A stretch of 64,000 bases of DNA. Origin: Chiridota heheva. Lineage: Eukaryota; Echinodermata; Holothuroidea; Apodida; Chiridotidae. The stretch covers positions 445,001 to 509,000 of the forward strand of contig JAIGNY010003771.1 of NCBI GenBank assembly GCA_020152595.1, read 5' to 3'. Of the stretch, positions 12,665-52,690 are shown piece by piece. The notes under the pieces were generated by a model. It ran no database searches. It saw nothing but the letters and a program-made list of their open reading frames with translations, and was not told where the DNA came from. Made by a program: the position numbers and the translations under genes. Within the stretch, counting starts at the first letter, position 1; each line of letters begins with the position of its first letter.

Positions 12665-14858
12665 ACGGCAGGGTGGGCAAGTCTCCCATATCCCATCTCT
12701 CCTGGAATGGTAAACTTCTCACCTCAAAAAAGGACATCGCTAATCACCTCACTGCCTCTTTCAGGAACATCTTGTCTTTGGCCAACTACCCCAATGCTTT
12801 CAAAACCAAAAAAGCTTGCGATGAAGCCTGGAGTATCAACTTTCCCTCTGACAACCCCCGAGAGCTACAACACCCCTCTCACCCTTTCTGAATTAAACCA
12901 AGCCATCCACGATGCTGAAGGCCCAGATAACATCCCCTACTAGTTCTTAAAACACCTCTCCAACAAGGCATCTCTCCAACAAGGCCACCACTACCCTACT
13001 CACCATCCTCAACCACATTTGGTCCTCACACTCCTTTCCCCCTATTTGGAGGACAGCTATTGTCATGCCCGTCCCTAAATCGGGGAAGGACAGTACCGAC
13101 CCCTCTAGCTACCACCCCATCATCCTCACCTACTGTCCCTGTACAATTATGGAAAGGATCATTAATTAGAGACTGAACTGGTTCTTTGAGACCAACAGAA
13201 TTCTCTCCCCTCACCAAAGCGGCTTCCAGAAACGTTGCAATACCCTAGACCAGTTAAATGTGCTCGACACTGCTATCCAGAAATCCTTTGCAAAAAAGGA
13301 ACAACTCATTGCCATCTTTTTCAACCTTGGGAAAGCTTTCGACACTACTTGGAAATACGGCATTATCCGCAAATTTTACACCATCGGCCACCTCCCCATC
13401 TTTATTCAAAACTTCCTCTTACCCAGGCAGTTCCAAGTTCCTTTGTCTGGGTGCCTACAGGACCTCACCAATCACCAGCCTTCATGTTGAAGCCAACGAA
13501 CCCCCCTTTCTGCTAAGGTGTAGAAAGCTTAGTCTCTCCTATGCTTTTAGAGTCCTAACCAGCAGCCAGAACCCTGTTTACAACCTCATTAGGTACCCCA
13601 ATTTCTCCACCCTCTTTAATAGGACTAAAGCTCTATCCCCTCCCCTTTAGCTTACGCATTAAATCAGACCTCCACCATCTTGGCATCAACCCCGTCACTT
13701 TTGGCACCTTCTCCTGCCCACTTTTCCTCCTTGGGTCACCCCTCCCTTCTATCCACCTGGGCCTCTCCACTCATCACAAAACCCAAACCTATCCTAACCT
13801 CCTCATCAATCTTCACAACCAAATCAAAGACCAACTCTCAAACTACACCTCCATCTATACTGATGGCTCTAAGGAAGGCGACAAGACAGCTGCTGCTGCC
13901 TTCATCCAAGACATCAACCTGAGTAGCAGGCTTTCCGACTCGTCCATCTTTTCAGCCGAGGCAAAGGCCATCTTCCTCGCCCTCAACTTGATTGAGTACT
14001 CTCTGCTTAGCCACTTTGCCATCTTCTCCGACTCCAAGGCTGTCCTTACTTCTTTACTCAAATCTTAAATGGGATAACCTCACATCCCACCTCCTCCTCC
14101 GGAAACTCCTTTCGCCCACCCTCTGCAGGAAAAGTATTATTTTCTTCTGGGTTACCCAGCCATGTTGGCATCCCTGGCAATGACAAAAGTGATGCAACCC
14201 TAAGCTTGCCTTCAACCTCCCCCTACCCCATTTATTGAAACCTTTGCTGCCATCAAACTGCTTATCGCTTCCCTTGTTCGTGACTACTGGCAAACCTCAT
14301 GGGACTCCCGAATTGATAAAAAACTCCATGTCATCCAGCCCACCATTCCGATCAAACACACCATCAACAACCTCTCTCGTGTAGACAACATTCATATTAC
14401 CCGTCTTAGAATAGGTCACACCCACCTCACTCACTCCCACCTCCTTATTGGATCCCCCCACCCCTCTGCAACAATTGCCATTGCACCCTCACAGTCTATC
14501 ACGTTCTCCTTGCTTGTCCCCTGTACATCCTTCCTAGAGCTACCCTCGCTCCCCACAACTCAATTGCCGAGCTTTTCCAGAAAAATCCTCCGGATAAAAT
14601 TATCTCCTTCCTTCATCATGCTTCTCTCTACAACCATATTTATTCCTCCTCTCCCACCCTCCTCTCTCTCTACTGTGTTTTATTTTCGCCCATGCACTTC
14701 TCTCGATCACAACTTTCTGACTTTTAGTTCTTGTATTGCTCTCATTCTCCCCCTGTTTTCTTTCCTTCCTACCTCTAAAATGGTATAACCTCTCAGGCAC
14801 AATTTAGCCCTCGTTGTCATGGTGCCGTTTAGCCCTCATCAACCAAACAAACAAACTT
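12665..14858 (+). mobile_element. I-group non-LTR retrotransposon (RT + RNase H), 5'-truncated and broken
   Basis: The copy begins in the linker before the reverse transcriptase and ends in a (CAAA)n-like tail at about 14842-14858. The RT region (about 12890-13480) holds segments matching 'W..A.V.P.PK.GKD...PSSYRPI', 'ILSPHQSGF' and 'GKAFDTTWKYGI', where LGKAFD replaces the usual DL.KAFD. An RNase H domain follows at about 13845-14065, with 'YTDGSK', 'FSAEAKAIFLAL' and 'IFSDSKAVL'. The C-terminal 'RLRIGHTHLTH' Cys/His segment lies at about 14405. The RT-RNase H order places it in the I superfamily (I or Nimb-like). At least five frameshifts or stops break it. Confidence 0.85.
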
Positions 14859-30955: not shown

Positions 30956-30963
30956 ACCATATG

Positions 30964-31650
30964 GTCGGTGGGCCAACCGTAGACCCCCCTTACAGATTTT
31001 CATCCACTACACTTTTTAGTTAGTCTGGACCCTCAGCAATCATTTTCTGCTTGTTTGCCATTAAACTGATGGTGGGTGTGAACGCCAGGGTGTTGTCATG
31101 GCAATGCCTAAATGAGAAACTGGAATTTTGAGAAAATGGCATATCTTTGTAACTGGATAAGTTATCAGCACACTTTAAGTATTCAGGTATATAGATTTGT
31201 TGCTGCCCAGTTGATTGCTATCAAGATTTAAGTCAATTGAGGTCGCGTTCATGTCTTTAAGGACCGTTGTCATGGCAACGCCATGATGAAGAAATGAATT
31301 TGAGAAAAAATGTCATTCCTTTGTATAGATTTAAAGCTGCTGGTTGGTTGCAATCAAGATCTCATTTACGTCAAAGATATACCTTTAATTGGTACTTTTG
31401 CCACTAGCGGGGCATTGGAGGGAGAGGGAGGGGGGATGGGTGTAGTCTCCCCTATTCATTTTTGTTAGTGTTGTCAATGAAAATTGTATATTTTGCCCCT
31501 CAGTCATGAATGTTAGGTATTATGTAAATTGGGTATTAATCCCGCCCCCATCCCCCAATTGAAATCTTACACCCGCCACTGGCTGTTGCTATGGCAATGC
31601 CAACGTAAACAAATGAATTTGAGAAAATGCCATAACATTAATTCATAATA
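30964..31650. repeat. Left inverted terminal and subterminal repeat region
   Basis: The outer 147 bases pair with 37492-37636. Inward, 'gttgtcatggcaa' recurs near 31093 and 31266, and 'tatggcaatgcc' near 31592. Companions such as 'gattgctatcaagattt' (31213) and 'ttgcaatcaagatct' (31347) are reverse complements of 'agatcttgattgcaatc' at the right end. A hairpin-type insert at 31398-31580 interrupts the region. Confidence 0.75.
31398..31580. mobile_element. Probable small hAT-type MITE inside the left terminal region
   Basis: A G-rich start 'ccactagcggggcattgg' and a C-rich end 'cttacacccgccactgg' are imperfect inverted repeats about 180 bp apart. 'CAGTGGCGGG...' is a common hAT terminus. It interrupts the element's terminal region and has no counterpart at the right end. 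No exact 8-bp target duplication is visible, so the boundaries are approximate. Confidence 0.5.
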
Positions 31651-33573
31651 CATATGGCCCCTTGATAACGTCATGCGCCATCTACTCAACAGTTGTAAAA
31701 CAAGGTCAAACAGTGGAAACTGCATTTCAGGCTGCTGCATCGGAAAGCAGGCGCATGGAAGAAGTCGCCATGTATATGCAACGAATCATAATAGCTGCCA
31801 AAAAAGATGCCTCGGGTATGCCCTGGCCACCCCCTCCAGGTATCAAACTCAAAGAATGGGACTTTCCACCAGTGCAAGTGTTAAATTTTCTTTCTGTACT
31901 TCTTGTCGGTAAAAAAATGGGAGGCACTATCTGCTGATAACACACGCAGAGTTTTATCGATTGGCCTGATATAATTTATGCCGTGACCAATAGCAGATGG
32001 ATAACACCTAAGCATTTACTCCTAGGAATGTCAGTCTGGCATCTGACAGGGAGAGCAGACATAGTGACACTGCTGAATAAATTTGGCCACTGTGTCATAT
32101 TCAAGACTACTAGAAATTCTCACTGCTATCCACATGACTATCAAAGACCATGACAGCCCCATTCCATAAGGTACCAAAACTCAAGGTAATAAAGTGCTAC
32201 ACTTCTGCTGGGACAATTTCGACTTGATTGAAGAAACGTCATCTGGTGCTGGAACGACACATTCGACCTATGGTCTTGTGATTCAAGAGACAGTCATTGA
32301 TTATTCAAGTGTTGAAACTGACGATATACCTTCAATTGCCAGGACAAAGAAGCGATCAGTGACAGATAATATTTTAGTTATGGAGCCATATTTTGTCAAA
32401 AAAATGTTGAACCAAGCCTTTGTGGTTCAATTTCTGAACATCAACACGCAAGAGATTACATTTCTGATGTCAGGGCATTAGACACGATATGAGTGCTGTG
32501 CAGAGCTCTACCACAATCAGTCAAGCAAATGGTACCTAGTTGGGGAGGTTGGATTTCTCTTACTGGGGAGAAAGGGGACAAAAGAGAAACAACTGTGGAA
32601 TACATGCCTCCAGTAAATGCCCCAATCACTGACAACGTGACTGTCATGCATGTGCTAAAGATCTCCCAGGAGGCATCTGCTGCTGTTGGACAGGCTTATA
32701 CAATTGTCACGTTTGATCTGGTTGCTGCTAAGAAGGCCTACGGAATTTTATGGTCGTATGCAGATCTATTTCGCAATGCCATAATTTGACTGGGGGCATT
32801 CCACATGGCATGTGCATACATCGGTGCATTAGGAAAGTATATAAAAGGGAGTGGATTTGTGGAAGTGCTAGTTGAATCTGCAGTGTGTGCAAGTGGTTCC
32901 ATCAAAAACGTCATGAATGGAAAACACTACAACAGGGCCAGGTATGTTATCTGAAGATCGCTGGAAGCTCTAGAACGGCTATTGTGGGCTTCATTTCAAG
33001 ATGAAGATGGATTAGTCATCGGTGAGCAAGAAATGAAGCTGATGTCAGTTCTGGCAAAAACACCAAATTCTGAACACTTGTCCGCTGTCAAGCAAAACTC
33101 CAAATGGAAGGAATGGATACAGAAGTATGATGAGTACAAAGCGATGGTGCGTGCTGGAGGAAATGGCACAATTCTGGCTAGGTTACATGGATAAGGCATG
33201 GCTCCTGATGCGTTTCTTTAGGGCTACAAGGATCAATGACATCACCTTGCACATGGCCTGTCTAGATGAAATGTGCCCTCTCTTCTTCGGTCAAGAGAAG
33301 CCAACCTATGCAAGGTATACATTACTTTACTTATACACACTTCCCAACCTGCCGCACACACATCCTGGTGCAATAGAGCAACTTAAGAAGAAAGGAATGA
33401 GTGTGAATTGCTCTGCAGTTCCTAACTCTCGCAATGCTGTGGATATAACAATAGAACAGACATACAACCGTCATGCCAGTGGGCATGGTCCAGGAATTAT
33501 TGGCTTCAGTCGCAACTTGGCAGCGTACCATAGGTAGAGTTTTACTCGGCATGCACGAGCTGGCTATCTAGAG

Positions 33574-34158
33574 GTAAGCATGATCTAGTGTATCTTATTA
33601 TAGGGGTGGTGCAATTGATAAATTTACATATAGACATGGGTTTTGTGGTAAGACGGGAAAATAGTTTTGATATGCATTTTTTAGTAACCATTTCTATAAA
33701 TTTGCCAAAAAAAGCTAAGAGAAAATATGCAACATTTTCTGCATCATATGAACAATATAAGGTTTAAAATAATTATTATAGTTTGACATAATTTTTATAA
33801 TTGCAAAGAGGAAGGGGGAGAGATCTGGCAAGTTGAAAAGGGTGCAAGCAATTTTCGACAGACTATTTTGTAATTTCACGCCATATACATAATTAGTGCA
33901 CTATCCCTTTATTGCTGTTTATCACATTGGAACGTTTTGTTCATTTTTATCATGTTTAGTATGTTAGGAAACCTTATTACATTTAAAGCTAGTAAAATCA
34001 TCCACATAAAGTCCTACATTTCTGCTCAATATGGATAGTGGTAAACTTTATATGCCGCTGAAATTAAATGTTTGTTTTACATTTCGAATGTATGTAAAGT
34101 TCAAAAAGCCAACCATATGTGTTCTGTAAGATCTTATTTTACTTGCATCTTGTTTCAG
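33574..34158 (+). other. Intron 1 of the nuclease-like gene
   Basis: Donor 'GAG|GTAAGC' and acceptor 'tcttgtttcag|GCA' flank 585 bases of AT-rich sequence. Joining restores '..YLE' + 'ATLDLAG' in phase 0. Confidence 0.75.
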
Positions 34159-35161
34159 GCAACACTTGACTTGGCTGGCATCAAGGATGATGAGGTAAGC
34201 AATCACAAAGATGTCAACCCATCAGAGATTGTACAGGGTGATTGTGCCGTGCGAAACATAATAACTGCCTTCCAGAGCTTTCTCAATCCTTTCAAGGTGC
34301 CTGATGCAGACAGGCTGTATTGTATATTATCAGGAAGACCAGTTTCAGAAGCAATAGCCAGTGACCAGCTCACTGTTGACACAAAGGGCACCAATGCATA
34401 TAAGAATTTTGTACAAACGACTCTAGCGAAGAGGACAGTCAGCTTTCACACGCCTATCAAGAAGCTGAGGTTGAAGACGTTTGCATCAATGTCAGTGAAA
34501 ATCACTGTGAGCAGCACTGTAAAAAAGACTAAGGAACTTGTTGCAGAAAGAAATCTTTTTGGACAGCTCATACTCCTTGCAATGAAAAATGAACTATGTA
34601 TGGAGAAGGTGATGGCATACCCACTTGGCCCAGTGCCTGGAGCCTCGCCACTGCTGATGGAGCACCAGTCAAAACAGACAAGGCAAAACTGCTACACAAA
34701 CTGGAAGGTCACACATTGACAAACAGGCCAGATTCTGCCATCCATGTTATTGATGGAAATGCAATGCTCCAAGCACTCACTCAAATCGCAGAAACCTTTG
34801 GAGTTGGTTCAACGTATCTTTGCACAGCTCCCAAATGCTACTTGTGTTGACTTTGTCACAGATACATACCAGCAACAGAGTATCAAGAGTATAGAGAGAG
34901 ATCGCCATGGCACATCACAATAATTCATCATACATGGTCCTCTTACAAGAGTACCACATGACTACAAGCAGTTTTTGGCAAACAGTACCAACAAAACGCA
35001 ACTTATCTGTCTAATTCTGCAAGAATGGAAGCAAGACACGTTCGCACCGAAGCTGAAAGGGCGGCTGGTGATGTTTGTCTGTGGAGAGAGCTGTTGGTGC
35101 CTAAGTAGCCAAGATGGACACAACCGATGTAGAAGAGGCCCCAAATTTGCGATCCAAACAG

Positions 35162-35431
35162 GTGTGTAACCTATTTAAGATATCTAAACTGCACAATGAT
35201 TACATTACTTTACTTTATCTTACCTTACCTTTCCTCACTTTTCTTCATTTAGCTTTACTATACTGTACTTCACTTATTTTACTTTATCTTACCTTACCTT
35301 ACCTCACTTTACTTTACTTAGCTTTACTTTACTATCCTGTACTTCATTTATTTTACTTCACCTTATCATGCCTCACCTTAACTTAAACTTTACTTTACTA
35401 AAATATATTTACATTTCCTCTTCTTTTTCAG
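35162..35431 (+). other. Intron 2 of the nuclease-like gene, filled with (ACTTT)n-like repeat
   Basis: Donor 'CAG|GTGTGT' and acceptor 'cttctttttcag|GAG' bound 270 bases. About 35205-35400 is a degenerate pentanucleotide repeat (ACTTT/ACCTT), giving a long pyrimidine-rich tract. Joining gives '..RSKQ' + 'EEADTR', placing the intron directly before a catalytic-type motif. Confidence 0.78.
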
Positions 35432-36789
35432 GAGGAGGCTGACACCAGAATAATACTTCACTGCTGTCATATTGCAACACATTGTACTGACTCAAGCGCC
35501 ATCATAGTTTGGTCACCTGATACAGATGTATTCCTGTTGCTGATGAAGTTTTCACAGAATATCAGGATACCACTAATCATGGACACTGGTGTTGCAGACA
35601 AGCGATGGTTGATTGACATCAGGTCAGCAGTCCTGGGTATTGGCAACAATCTTTGCAATGCATTGCTTTCACTCCACGCTTTTACCAGCTGTGATACGAT
35701 TAGTTCATTTGTTCATTTGTGCGTGTGCTGCAAAAAAACCTGCAATATGTTCCTGTCTTTACAGGTTTAGGTACAAGCTCTACTTTCAATCCAGGAACGT
35801 TTGATGATCTAGAAGCATTCACATGTCTTTTATATGGGGCAAAGTCAGGTGTCAATGACATCAACAAGCTGCGGTATACCATGTTCATGACACGTTACAC
35901 ACCAAAGAACCAGCTACTGTCCAGTGAAAGTAGCATCTACCTAAGTTTGCTTCCACCCTGCAGATTCTCCTTAAGGATGCATGTTGTACGTGCCAATTAT
36001 CAGGCCCTCATATGGAACCAAGCTGATTTGGCATATCCGGAATTGCCAAAGCCCGACGATGGTCATGGATGGGTTCTATGGGGAGACATATTGGAGTACT
36101 AATGGACAGAAGATGAAATGCTATCAAAGGAACTTATCGATTTAGTATTGGAGCAGGATCATGAAGATGATACTGAAGCTGACTACTATAACATGCAAGA
36201 AGATATGTTTGATGATGAGGAGGATGATGATGACTTATATGAATTATAAGAGAATTGACCATATGTGGAATACCATATCATATGACTACATTTTTTATTG
36301 ATCAGTGGTATTTACTTTCAAAGCCTAGCTACACTGAAAATAAATTGGGTTATCAGCCACAAATCTACATAGGAACAATTTTTCTGCTTTTCCAAAAAAT
36401 GTCCACCACAAAAAATCTTAATTAAAAGGTGTTGAAAAAAGCCACAAAGATGGCAGAAAGCTTAAGTTAATGTCTGTATGCTGCATACTACTTGTCAAAA
36501 CAATTCCACATTGTAGATATTCATATCCCTAATATGAATCCGGTCTACTGGTTTCTCATCAAGAAAGCAACTTAACGGGTCTACAGTAAACTAGCACTAC
36601 AAAGATGTCAAGTTGGCGTGAAAATCACCATGAACACCTTAATATGCTTCCCTTAGGACACAAGTTTTCAGTGAAGTTACAGATCAGCATTTTGTCTTCT
36701 CAGTCATGTCAGTAGGTAACCAAAAACATGCATGTATCTAAGTAACACATTAAAGTATGTTACAAATATAATAATGGTTTGTAGAATAC

Positions 36790-37636
36790 TGTAAGACAAT
36801 TTGATGTAAATGAACATTTCTCTAGGCATTGCGATTAAGCATGACTGTATTTAAGGACCCAGATATTGATTGCAATCAACCGGCTAATCTTAAAATCTAT
36901 ACAGTCCTATACATATATAATAACATTGTGATTTCATATTATATTGTAGCGTATTACAACTAAGATATGACCGGGGATATGACATTTCCAAATTAACCAA
37001 TTTCAATTTTTTTCACACATTTATTATGGCAACTTTTATGATTGGGCATGATTGTGACCTTACACTACATCCCTATAAGCCTATACACTAGCATTGTTTA
37101 CTTAAAAATATATGACAATTTTTTTTATATTTTTTTTATCACGGCATTAATTGACATGGCAATTGTCCTGATTGGGCATGACCGTGACCTTAAAAGACCC
37201 AGATCTTGATTGCAATCTAATAGGCAGTTTCAAATATATATACTTACACACTGGAATGTGTTTTTATGCTGTAAAGTTTCAAAGATATGACATTGTTTAT
37301 CAAATTCAAGCTTTTTGTCACTGAGTTGCCATGGCAAAGGTCATGATAAGGCATGATTGTGACCTCAAATGACCTAGATCTTGATTACAACCAATATGGC
37401 AGCTTCAAATTATATATACTTAAATATGTGTTTTAATGTTGTTTAGTTACAAATATATATTATTTCCTTAAATTCCAATTTCTATCACTACGTTGCCATG
37501 ACAACGCCCTGGCGCTCACACCTACCATCAGTTTAATGGCAAACAAGCAGAAAATGATTGCTGAGGGTCCAGACTAACTGAAAAGTGTAGTGGTTGAAAC
37601 TCCCCAAGGATGGCTTCGATATATTGGCCCCCCAAC
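36790..37636. repeat. Right inverted terminal and subterminal repeat region
   Basis: Four diverged subrepeats of about 150-190 bp carry 'ggcatgattgtgacct' (36837 variant, 37046, 37169, 37350), 'agatcttgattgcaatc' (36861 variant, 37201, 37375) and 'gttgccatggcaa' (37329; 37493 variant). The last 145 bases are the inverted partner of the left end. Confidence 0.78.
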
Positions 37637-37639
37637 TAA

Positions 37640-39400
37640 TAAGTTTAAGTTTTAAGTTTAGTACACTTGTATGGCGCATTATCTAAATAACTTATTCAAA
37701 TTCGCCTTCCAAAATATGCATATAAAGAAAATAAATACGAATGTGTATATAAGATAAGAATGAAATATAAAGAAAACAAAGAACAAGAAAATTATGAAGA
37801 GGACTTGAGAGCACAATTAAATAAGTAAGTCTTTAGCAAGGTGTGGAATTGTTTAAGGGATTGAGCAGATTTGATTGAAAGAGGTAAGTCATTCCGGCCA
37901 AATATTTGCAGAGAGCGATCGCCATAAGTAAGTTTACTTTTTGAAACATAAAGGATGAATGAGGTGGTTTTGAGAGCGAAGGCTCTCAAAACTCTGGTTT
38001 GTTAATAATGAAACATTTTGGTCAGATATAATGGGCCATGTTATAAAGGGATTTAAAAATGAGGATTAAATTTTAAATTTAATTCTATATGAGGCTCTCA
38101 AAACTCTGGTTTGTTAATAATGAAACATTTTGGTCAGATATAATGGGCCATGTTATGAAGGGATTTAAAAATGAGGATTAAATTTTAAATTTAATTCTAT
38201 ATGAGGCTCTCAAAACTCTGGTTTGTTAATAATGAAACATTTTGGTCAGATATAATGGGCCATGTTATGAAGGGATTTAAAAATGAGGATTAAATTTTAA
38301 ATTTAATTCTATATGAGGCAGGTAGCCAATGAAGATTTTGCAGTAGATAAAGTGATGGAGTAAAATGGTTGCTTCTTGTAACGAGCCTTGCAGCATAATT
38401 CTGAACAGGCTGCAACTTTTTCACTGTAACACCTGGCACCCCTGCAAGGAGGACATTGCAATAATCTATGCAGCTATGTACAAGTACATTTATAAGTAAT
38501 ATTGCAGAGCTTCTGTCCAGAAACTTCATGCACCTTCTGCTGTTAAACAAATGGTAAAATGCAGTTTTGCATTTGTGAATGACATGGTCAACCTTTATTT
38601 AACCAAGCGCCCAGATATTTGACAGTGGACGATAATTTCACTGTCATTACCAATAGCAATACTGCCAATATTTAATTTAGTTAGATGGTAATTGGATCCA
38701 AAAATAATGACTTTACTTTTTTAATCGTTTATTTTTTATTTTAGTTTGTTGAAAATCATCCAATCTTTCACTATTTTCAAAACAACCTTTAATTTCAGCT
38801 ATGGCTGAGATCACATTTGATGGATCATTGGCATTGAACAACATGTATACGCTGCGGTCATCAGCATACCATGAATACTGGGAGAAAAGGCTATCACAGC
38901 ATCAAACAGAGAAGATGCATACCATGTGAATAAGAGGGGTCCACAACAAGAGCCTTGAGGCACATCAAATGCCCTTGATTCAGCAGTGCCGATAAGGATT
39001 TTTTGTTTCCTTTGAACTAAACAGGATTCAAACCAATTTAAGATGGTTCCATCAATGCCAAAACGCTTATTTAAGGTTTTAAGAAGCATACCATGATCAA
39101 TTGTGTCGAATGCCACACCTAAAACAAGGAGCACTAGAATGACACATTTTTGTTTGTCTAGTTGTAGCAGTATATCTGATTGAATTTGAGCTAAAGCAGT
39201 TTGTGTGCTATGGAATGGGTGAAACCCTGATTGACAGGAAGGTAATAAGTCATGCTGCTGACTATGCTTGATCATTTGTTCAACAATGGCACACTCAACT
39301 TTTTTAGACAAGAAACTAAGATTGCTCACTGGTTGATAGTTAGCATACGTTACATCAAGCCCTTGTTTTTGATCTACAATCCTAAAACTTGGCAAAAGTT
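37640..39400 (-). mobile_element. CR1/L2-like LINE, 5'-truncated, with internal triplication
   Basis: On the - strand a 194-codon frame (39395-38811) starts at the RT domain. It contains 'NYQPVSNLSFLSK', 'DLLPSCQSGFHPFHST', 'AFDTIDHGMLLK' and 'FDVPQGSCCGPLLF', i.e. RT motifs up to box B. The YADD box follows in another frame near 38870. Later pieces continue at 38550-38290 ('LLINVLVHSCIDYCN', 'LHWLPASYRIKFKI') and 37989-37792 ('RSLQIFGRNDLPLSIK'). The 3' tail near 37640-37680 contains 'gcgccatacaagtgtac' followed by repeated 'aaacttaa' words. Stops and frameshifts make it inactive. Its tail abuts the right end of the 6.7-kb element. Confidence 0.85.
37981..38316. repeat. 112-bp unit tandemly triplicated within the LINE
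   Basis: 'ggctctcaaaactctggttt' begins at 37981, 38093 and 38205, an exact 112-bp period, with only one visible substitution between units ('ttataaaggg' versus 'ttatgaaggg'). The near-identity shows that amplification is much younger than the LINE. Confidence 0.95.
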
Positions 39401-40659: not shown

Positions 40660-41523
40660 CTATATATCATGAATCCAACTTGGCATATCATAACCAAATA
40701 GTTCAAAATCTTCTTGATATTTCTGATAGAGTTTTTTCAGATCAGAATTTGGAACTTTCTCATAATGTGATGCCAGAATACTTTCTTGTGAACTAAATGT
40801 TGGGCTGCTATGGTTTGGTTGTGGAAATGTTACCACATCTTCTGCATCTGCCAAGTTGAGAATATAATCTGCATCTTGATTCAGAGTTTCAAAGTGGCCC
40901 AGAATATCATAATTAAAATCACATGGTCTACACGAGTGGGCTTGGAAGTGCCAATGCTTGTTAAGTTGTATCTCCTGACTGTCAATGATGTATTTGACAA
41001 ATTCTGAAAACTGAAGATCATATTGGCTAAATGGTATTTTAACTTTTCTGTACTTCTGTATGATTCTCATTCCAACTGATTTCTGCCATGCACCTGCTCG
41101 AGGGAATGTTGTATTTGGTGATAATTTATTTTGAAAAGCTGATAAAATTCTTGAAAAAGGATTCCTTGAAAACATGAATTTTGTATATGTTCTTAATATA
41201 TGATCACGCTCTCCAAAGCTGTACATTGACAGCTGTTTTAACTCGCGTTTCACCATCCTGTTTATTTCATATTGTGACATGTCATATGTTGAATTTGTCT
41301 TTCCTGCAAGGACATAGAAAACGCTCTTCCAGCTTGTGCAGGCAACTTTGGGAATTGAACAGTAAACTAACTTATACTTATCATCAACTATAAAATGACT
41401 AGGAGGATGTGAGACAAGATATTGAAAACTTCTTGTAGGTGATTTCCACTTCTCGCATCCCTCCTTGAGAATTTGATGGCGCTCCTCCTGAATGCTTTCC
41501 ACATCCTTTGATTCAACTTTTGG
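40660..41523 (-). CDS. CHST: Carbohydrate sulfotransferase (CHST8-14 / HNK-1ST family), catalytic last exon
   Basis: The exon opens after a 'ttttaacag' acceptor at 41524 and runs 287 codons, ending in TGA or TAA-type stop at 40660. It encodes the whole luminal sulfotransferase domain. The 5'-phosphosulfate loop 'CSIPKVACTSWK' is at about exon residues 56-67. The 3'-phosphate loop 'FSRNPFSRILSAF' is at about 121-133. A 'GHFETLNQDADYIL' segment and a C-terminal 'YQEDFELFGY' follow, all in family order. The enzyme would transfer sulfate from PAPS to a hydroxyl of a GalNAc, GlcA or chondroitin/dermatan-type glycan in the Golgi. The subfamily cannot be fixed. There is no lesion, and usual family length (300-420 aa) is reached with the upstream exons. 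Confidence 0.93.
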   Translation of the reverse strand, partial: PKVESKDVESIQEERHQILKEGCEKWKSPTRSFQYLVSHPPSHFIVDDKYKLVYCSIPKVACTSWKSVFYVLAGKTNSTYDMSQYEINRMVKRELKQLSMYSFGERDHILRTYTKFMFSRNPFSRILSAFQNKLSPNTTFPRAGAWQKSVGMRIIQKYRKVKIPFSQYDLQFSEFVKYIIDSQEIQLNKHWHFQAHSCRPCDFNYDILGHFETLNQDADYILNLADAEDVVTFPQPNHSSPTFSSQESILASHYEKVPNSDLKKLYQKYQEDFELFGYDMPSWIHDI

Positions 41524-41821
41524 CTGTTAAAAGATAAATAAATACTGTCAGGTCATTGAGAAGACATTTTTTGACACCTTTAAAAGCAAAGCAACCTTGT
41601 GTTTAAGAAAGTGATACAAATGCTGAGTATACCACTTCCATATTTAACAAATAATAGTTTGACATGTACCTCTACCAAGTATATATACCATTGAAACCCA
41701 GAGAAACCTAACAAATTCGAATCATAGACACACTTGTGGTACACATTTTCTGAAGGACTTCTGAGTTTAGCCTAATCTCCCAATTGTGAATACTGACTGA
41801 TCTGCATTATATCAATTGAGT

Positions 41822-43567
41822 AGATATCACCTTTGACAGTTATATAGCTTTCATTTGTAGCCCCTTTTCATGAAATATCACCTTTGACAGTTATATAACT
41901 TTCATTTGTAGCCCCTTTCATTAAATATCACCTTTGTCAGTTATATAACTTTCATTTGTAGACCCTGTCATGAGATGTCACCGTTGTCAGTTATATACCT
42001 TTCATTAATAGCCCAACTTTCATTAGATATCACCTTTAGCGTTATATAACTTTCATTTATAGCCCTTTTCATGTGATATCACCTTTGTCAGTTATATAGC
42101 TTTCATTTGTAGACCCTTTCATTAGATATCAATTTTGTCAGTTATAGCTTTAATTTGTAGCACCTTTCGTTAGATATCACCTTTGACACTTATATAACTT
42201 TCATTTGTAACTGCCTTTCATGAGATATCACCTTTGTCAATTATATTGCTTTCATTTATAGCCTCTTTCATTAGATATCACCGTTGAAAGTTATATAACT
42301 TTCATTTATAGCCCCTTATTCATGAGATGTCACCTTTGACAGTTATATAACTTTCATTTATAACTCCCTTTCATTAAATATCAACTTTTGTCAATTACCG
42401 TATATAGCTTTCATTTGTAGTCCCCCTTTCATTAGATATCACCTTTGTCAGTTATATAAGTTTCATTTGTAGCCCCATTCCATGAGATATCACCTTTGTC
42501 AGTTAAAGCTTTTATTTGTAGCCCCTTTCATTAGATATCACCTTTGACAGTTATATAACTTTCATTTGTAGCCCCTTTCATTAGATATCCCCCCTGTCAG
42601 TTATATAACTTTTATTTGCAGACCCTTTCATGAGATGTCACTTCTGTCAGTGATATTACTTTCATCAATAGCCCAACTTACATTAGATATCACCTTTGAC
42701 ACTTCTATACCTTTTATTGATAGCCTTCTTTCATGAGATGTCACTCTTGTCAATTATATAACTTTAATAGGTAGCCCATTTCATTAGATATCACCTTTGT
42801 CAGTTATATAACTTACATTTATAGCCCCTGTAAGTTACATAACTTACATTTGTAGCCCCTGTAAGTTACATAACTTACATTTGTAGCCCCTTTTATTAGA
42901 TATCACCTTTGTCAGTTATATAACTTACAATTGTAGCCCCTTTCATTAGGTATCACCTTAGTCAGTTATATAACTTACATTTGTAGCCCCTTTCATTAGA
43001 TGTCTCTTTTGTCAGCTATATAACTTACATTTGTAGCCCCTTTCATTAGATGTCACCTTTGTTAGTTATATAACTTACATTTATAGCCCCTGTCAGTTAT
43101 ATAACTTACATTTGTAGACCTTTTCATTAGATATCACCTTTGTCAGTTATTTAACTTACATTTGTAGCCCCTTTCATTAGGTATCACCTTTGTCAGTTAT
43201 AAACCTACATTTGTAGCACCTTTCATTAGATGTCACTTTTGTCAGTTATATAACTTACATTTGTAGCCCCTTTCATTAGATATCACCTTTGTCAGTTATA
43301 TAACTTACATTTATAGCCCCTTTCATTAGATATTACCTTTGTCAGTTATATAACTTGCATTTGTAGACCCTTTCATTAGATATCACCTTTGTCAGTTATA
43401 TGGCTTTCATTTGTAGCCTCTTTCATCAGATATCACCTTTGTCAGTTATATAACTTACATTTGTAGCCCCTTTCATTAGATATCACCTTTGTCAGTTATA
43501 TAACTTACATTTGTAGCCCAGTTCATTAGATATCACTTTTGTCACTTTCATTTCTAGCCCCTTTATT
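41822..43567. repeat. 50-bp minisatellite, about 35 degenerate units
   Basis: The unit is roughly 'gatatcacctttgtcagtta' + 'tataacttacatttgtag' + 'cccctttcatta'. It repeats with small length changes over 1.75 kb in a sulfotransferase intron. Two subtypes occupy separate ends: 'ctttcatttgtag' dominates 41.82-42.78 kb, and 'cttacatttgtag' dominates 42.80-43.52 kb. Confidence 0.95.
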
Positions 43568-51673: not shown

Positions 51674-52690
51674 TCAGTCAGTTCGTATACCATCCTCTAC
51701 TTTTTGAAGTTTAGTTTCATAAAATGTACCCTTGATAAGATCTCCTGTTTTATCTCCAATTCTGTAAACTGGTGATGTTCTTGGTAATCTCCCAGCAATA
51801 ATAAATAATTCTTCTGTCCAATTAGCATAATATTCCTTTTCGAAGGTCAACTTTGTTTTACTAATATGTACCACATCTCCAATATTGAATTTATATTTTG
51901 TCTGTTTCTCTTTTGCTGGATACAGTTTTTTCCAAACTGTACTTTGATTTTGAATATTTACTTCTACTGGTTTCATACCTATACTATGATGATAACGATG
52001 ATTGTATGAATGAACAAGCTTATCCAATACTTTGTAGTACTGTAACCTATTCTTGTAGGTCATGTATTTCCACATCCTTGTTTTAAGGGTACGACTAAAA
52101 CATCCGACAACAGAAGCTTTTAATTCACTTCCTGATGAATAATGATGGGTTTCTTGCTTCTTCAAATACGTCTGAACGGTACAATTGTAAAATTCTGTTC
52201 CTTTAATCACTTAGTAAATTGATGAGTTTTCTTCCCAAATCAAGAATGTTTTCTAGAGCAAGTTCAAGATCTTTTCCTTTCTTAGATTTCAGAGGAATAA
52301 CCCTGGCATATTTTGAAAATACATTGATGCAAGTCACAAGGTATTTTATACCCCGATTGTACTTTGAAAGTGATGTCATGTCAACTACTTCAATTTGCCA
52401 TTAATGAGCCATGCCCAGTACTTTCTCCTTTTTTTCACAAACTGTTTTCGAACAAGTTTGTGAAGGGTATAAGCATCCTCCTTTTGTAACCATGCTTCAA
52501 CATCCCTATATTTTGCAGTGGGATTCACCCCTCTCTCACTTTGGTATAAAGCATCCTTACTCCCAAACCATCTTACCCCAAACCCTAAAGGATGAGACAG
52601 GCCATAGTACACTTCCCTTCTGCACACATCAAAACTCATCATGAATGCAATACCACTGATTTTTTCAACTGACTTAATGAATCTACACAT
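51674..52690 (-). pseudogene. Polinton integrase, frameshifted
   Basis: Two overlapping frames on the - strand make up the gene. 52690-52385 reads the N-terminal part with 'YYGLSHPLGFG' and a 'LQKEDAYTLHK' segment. 52210-51674 reads the C-terminal catalytic end ('SVVGCFSRTLKTRMWKY', 'LVHSYNHRYHHSIGMKP') and a chromodomain-like tail ('FNIGDVVHISK', 'YRIGDKTGDLIKGTFYE'). The middle, with the first catalytic Asp region, lies in a third frame at about 52400-52205. It is a DDE-type integrase that would insert the element DNA. ERFNRTLK, typical at the catalytic Glu, reads GCFSRTLK here, so the Glu appears lost. Confidence 0.85.

Follow-up and report, generated by a model that had tools for sequence, protein, structure and literature searches.

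A 64,000-nucleotide stretch of the genome of the sea cucumber Chiridota heheva (contig JAIGNY010003771.1, positions 445,001 to 509,000; hereafter the window) carries, at positions 30962-37638, a degenerate DNA transposon copy of 6,677 bp. This copy is probably the decayed remnant of an Academ-type (AcademX-like) cut-and-paste element, whose ancestor would have encoded a single protein composed of a transposase domain (the DUF6589 region) followed by a nuclease of the FEN/XRN superfamily. AcademX-type elements have probably been described before, and the window element is mainly a new example of them; the most useful new detail is that two families only distantly related carry matching end signals.

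The limits of the element were set by comparison with other copies, and a first-pass annotation made from the letters alone had come close to them (30964-37636). The left inverted terminal repeat occupies 30962-31323 on the forward strand and the right one 37280-37638 on the reverse strand, with terminal motifs at 30962-30976 and 37624-37638, respectively. The best ungapped inverted core measures 117 nt with 92% complementarity (30988-31104 and 37493-37609), and a gapped alignment of about 330 bp joins 30995-31323 to 37280-37602 at 78%; the inverted ends noticed earlier are therefore present but longer than the approximately 147 bp first assigned to them. The aligned ends of the copies start with TAGTC(G/T/A)GTGGGCCAA at both sides. 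The terminal motif was counted throughout the 1.1-Gb genome against a reversed-motif control: its 15-bp form occurs exactly 81 times, compared to none for the control, which is more than chance would give, and its 13-bp form 111 times, compared to five.

Other copies were collected by a protein search with the exon that encodes the EEADTR and SPDTDV motifs (best 150 of 644 candidates scored), from which 20 places were taken as 10-kb loci (L031-L050; half of L043 consists of N). Every one of these loci aligns to the element in the window, the long pieces for the most part at 87-93% identity. A separate search with the left core (best 40 of 131 candidates scored) gave eight inverted pairs, 4.4-5.5 kb apart. 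With the window included, a motif scan found end pairs in 16 of the 21 loci, the exceptions being L034, L035, L043, L044 and L045. Four of these pairs were set aside by eye as chance sites (one end in L039, L040 and L047, both ends in L048), leaving 12 pairs of true ends. Identical 3-bp flanks (TTA, TAA, ATT, TAT or ATA) border nine of the 12, including the window copy, where ATA lies at 30959-30961 and again at 37639-37641; over 4 bp, none of the 12 pairs has identical flanks. When right flanks were shuffled among all 16 pairs, 2.3 matches were obtained on average, and nine were reached in none of 20,000 shuffles. The element thus shows both features of a terminal inverted repeat (TIR) DNA transposon, namely inverted ends common to many copies and a target-site duplication of fixed length, as the first-pass annotation had proposed and had suggested checking in other copies.

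The same end signal was found in a second, distant family. Loci L026 (contig C1526) and L024 (contig C125) belong to one family, with 93% identity between them, and piece by piece their nuclease shares 31-44% identity with that of the window family. The genes lie between inverted copies of TAGTCAGTGGGCC, at C125 74162-82122 and C1526 8503-16511, so that each element measures about 8.0 kb. From TAGTC inwards the copies resemble each other; outside, they differ. Past the first 15 bp, a forced alignment shows no obvious resemblance between these ends and those of the window element. The C1526 copy is flanked by the duplication ATA; the C125 copy is bordered by TTA to the left and by ATA to the right, and hence has no perfect 3-bp duplication. 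Since the terminal 13-15 bp are kept though the proteins of the two families differ widely, these bases may be read or cut by a protein that both share. At least two more pairs of the 13-bp motif in inverted orientation, A-type like the second family, occur at G000:C748:231183-234820 and C2643:1412001-1419618. On C125 (L104, L106), ATATGAGC adjoins the right end and recurs 14-21 bp outside the left end. For another relative, L029, no inverted copy of the 3' flank was found on its contig among the best 40 of 766 candidates.

The second family also bears on whether the nuclease is merely a FEN/XPG-like gene or pseudogene of the host that came to lie between unrelated repeats, foreign to the machinery of the element. 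For such a capture speak the broken state of the window copy and the deletions or inserted long interspersed nuclear element (LINE) fragment in most of the copies examined. The second nuclease exon, though found in all 20 other loci, does not count here, as a match to it was the basis on which they were selected. Against it, a related nuclease lies between the same terminal motifs in the distant family, and the Pfam XPG_I matches of the genome fall at four other places, outside the listed copies. Capture of a host gene is thus highly improbable and was rejected. A virus-derived element was likewise rejected: Pfam scans of the frames of the element gave no viral family at the cut-off.

The gene runs on the forward strand and is interrupted by stops and frameshifts. 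N-terminal coding remnants at 31623-32478 include the SGAGTTHS motif (32242-32265), and are followed by the DUF6589-like region, recognized by its Pfam match and probably a transposase domain, at 32493-33573 (VTFDL at 32706, DITIEQTYN at 33442). After a GT-AG intron (A, 33574-34158) come a linker and the first half of the FEN-like nuclease domain at 34159-35161 (IDG at 34749 and VTDTY at 34855, the latter not among the motifs first listed). A second GT-AG intron, rich in TTACT (B, 35162-35431), precedes the second half of the domain and an acidic tail at 35432-36249, with EEADTR at 35432, SPDTDV at 35513 and SCDT at 35687. A frameshift near 35700 and a premature stop at 36100 disrupt this second half, and a TAA stop codon lies at 36247-36249. 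When short stretches are joined across both introns, the residues come in the same order as in P0001, a relative without introns, which supports the introns as originally noted.

As the first-pass annotation had held, the nuclease is FEN/XPG-like: structure prediction gives the family a PIN/FEN-like fold, and seven catalytic acidic residues occur in FEN order, as judged by order and context rather than by residue-level superposition. Like FEN1, EXO1, XPG and XRN, relatives of the window nuclease carry GCD and then a GKGK-type stretch. Sequence similarity to that superfamily is low (the structural alignments shown have 7-16% identity), and the nuclease has E-x-D (EEAD) where the superfamily has E-x-E; in the window copy, GCD is replaced by SCD. 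Pfam XPG_I fails to recognize the window-family nuclease, and its pieces gave no significant match against Pfam or PDB sequences. A match to EXO1 over the GCD region is weak (E 0.26), and hhalign against archaeal FEN1 (a profile of 47 of 53 loci, the first 50 being taken and then filtered by length) gave a probability of 1.2, the profile being shallow (Neff 2.0). A first structure model, built on a nine-row alignment, was poor (pLDDT 54) and had no Foldseek match below E 0.001, its list including XRN1, T5 FEN and XPG amid unrelated rows. The relatives have in addition a C-terminal cysteine-rich stretch, with a TCR-like (TCR/CXC) Pfam match below the cut-off (E 0.0085). A scan of IMG/VR with a relative yielded one pattern match and no confirmed relatives.

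Upstream in the same gene, Pfam DUF6589 (PF20231) matches within 33043-33537 at 27.1 bits, compared to a cut-off of 27. In copy L039 the corresponding region scores 31.2 bits (E 1.2e-7, profile positions 134-360), so that the curated cut-off is attained or passed, yet with a weak match. At least 27 DUF6589 matches were found in the genome: those at C2068, C2797, C1952 and C938 overlap matches to the nuclease family, those at C2596 and C2038 sit inside copies of the window family, and for the other 21 no adjoining nuclease occurs among the matches listed. The window element offers DUF6589 a functional setting.

Which of the two domains performs transposition is a further question. It is quite unlikely that the nuclease itself is the transposition enzyme, cutting the ends, with the DUF6589 region serving only in DNA binding or structure. 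For such a role speak its full set of acidic residues, the terminal motifs common to two nuclease families, and the DUF6589 region, in which a search of the PDB found no known fold and thus no demonstrated catalytic one (one irrelevant match, E 1.2). Slightly less likely still is its more specific form, in which the FEN/XRN-like nuclease cleaves specifically the common TAGTCNGTGGGCC ends and transposition proceeds without a DDE active site. Known enzymes of the FEN/XRN kind act by hydrolysis of DNA or RNA and are not known to join strands. The published lineage that matches the element moreover sits in a DDD/E superfamily (PMC10045372, PMC9587614); given this and the DUF6589 region upstream in the same gene, the suggestion made at first, of a system unlike the DDE type, finds no support. 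The nuclease seems likelier to be a helper, the other role then envisaged. In the arrangement we favour, a transposase accompanied by a nuclease, the DUF6589 region would join the ends to the target through a DDD/E active site, and processing of one strand at the ends or target, by a second-strand cut or by removal of a flap or hairpin, would fall to the nuclease. Such processing would fit a staggered 3-bp insertion. With a nuclease of predicted FEN/XRN fold and full acidic set, and ends common to two families, it is now directly testable which domain reads or cuts the ends.

The N-terminal part (31750-32650) is kept, as in the window, in two of the 20 loci (L037 and L044); it was not found in the other 18, among which half of L043 consists of N, and L035 and L045 are missing a larger share of the 5' half. 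A 1,368-bp insert at 33459/33463, whole or partial, occurs in 13 of the 20 loci. It is 87% identical to a LINE-like fragment at 13491-14855 of the window, where the frame 13559-14065 has an RNase_H match below the cut-off (E 2.5e-4). Since the N-terminal part was not found in most loci and the insert is present in 13, copies lacking an intact gene seem to have multiplied, like non-autonomous elements. Pairwise divergence of the last exon is 3.5-8.8%, with a median of 5.9% (21 sequences compared in 210 pairs). Singleton variants are distributed evenly among the codon positions (73/79/86), as expected under neutral decay, and variants common to several copies are more frequent at the third position (16/15/27).

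Shortly beyond the element, a reverse-transcriptase remnant lies at 38814-39398 on the reverse strand (RVT_1, E 8.8e-14). Further along the same strand, a 288-residue open frame at 40663-41526 (Sulfotransfer_2, E 1.9e-54) probably belongs to a sulfotransferase gene of the host, and a weak integrase-core match below the cut-off (rve_2, E 0.0096) lies at 51677-52210. A satellite-like array occupies 41821-43544, with a period of about 50 bp and a higher-order period near 200.

Two points temper the assignment to Academ. The second nuclease exon, present in all 20 loci, is no evidence, since the loci were chosen by their match to it, and Pfam finds no DUF6589 in P0001. Both slightly lowered our confidence in the Academ-type reading, and slightly raised that in a separate, undescribed TIR transposon superfamily that converged on the AcademX layout with its own transposase and a FEN-like nuclease. 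The TAGTCNGTGGGCC terminal motif and the cysteine-rich stretch of the relatives, neither of which appears in the parts of the Academ descriptions examined, would suit a superfamily of this kind. The duplication length and the nuclease agree, however, with the account of AcademX (PMC10045372), and the size with that of bivalve Academ elements; a separate superfamily is thus an unlikely, if somewhat more credible, alternative than the nuclease acting as transposition enzyme. A literature search, conducted mostly outside full texts, returned no account of a FEN/XPG-like transposon nuclease.

AcademX takes its name from XPG. Among known systems, Academ is classed with the DDD/E superfamilies (PMC9587614), and its nuclease- and helicase-bearing lineages differ in duplication length (PMC10045372). 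AcademH encodes a helicase and makes duplications of 9 or 10 bp, whereas the window element has a nuclease and 3-bp duplications, and no flank pair in our set matches even over 4 bp; if the window element is an Academ, the two belong, by that literature, to the same superfamily. A Helicase_C scan aimed at AcademH-like relatives gave, at G000:C2067:37614-44080, a match about 4-6.5 kb from two DUF6589 matches and on the opposite strand, perhaps a helicase-bearing relative. The window element is of a similar order of size to the bivalve Academ elements. The closest likeness, by description, is to AcademX, a nuclease-bearing lineage with duplications of 3 or 4 bp (PMC10045372): the window element is likewise a TIR element, its 3-bp duplications fall within that range, and its family has a nuclease by predicted fold and residues.
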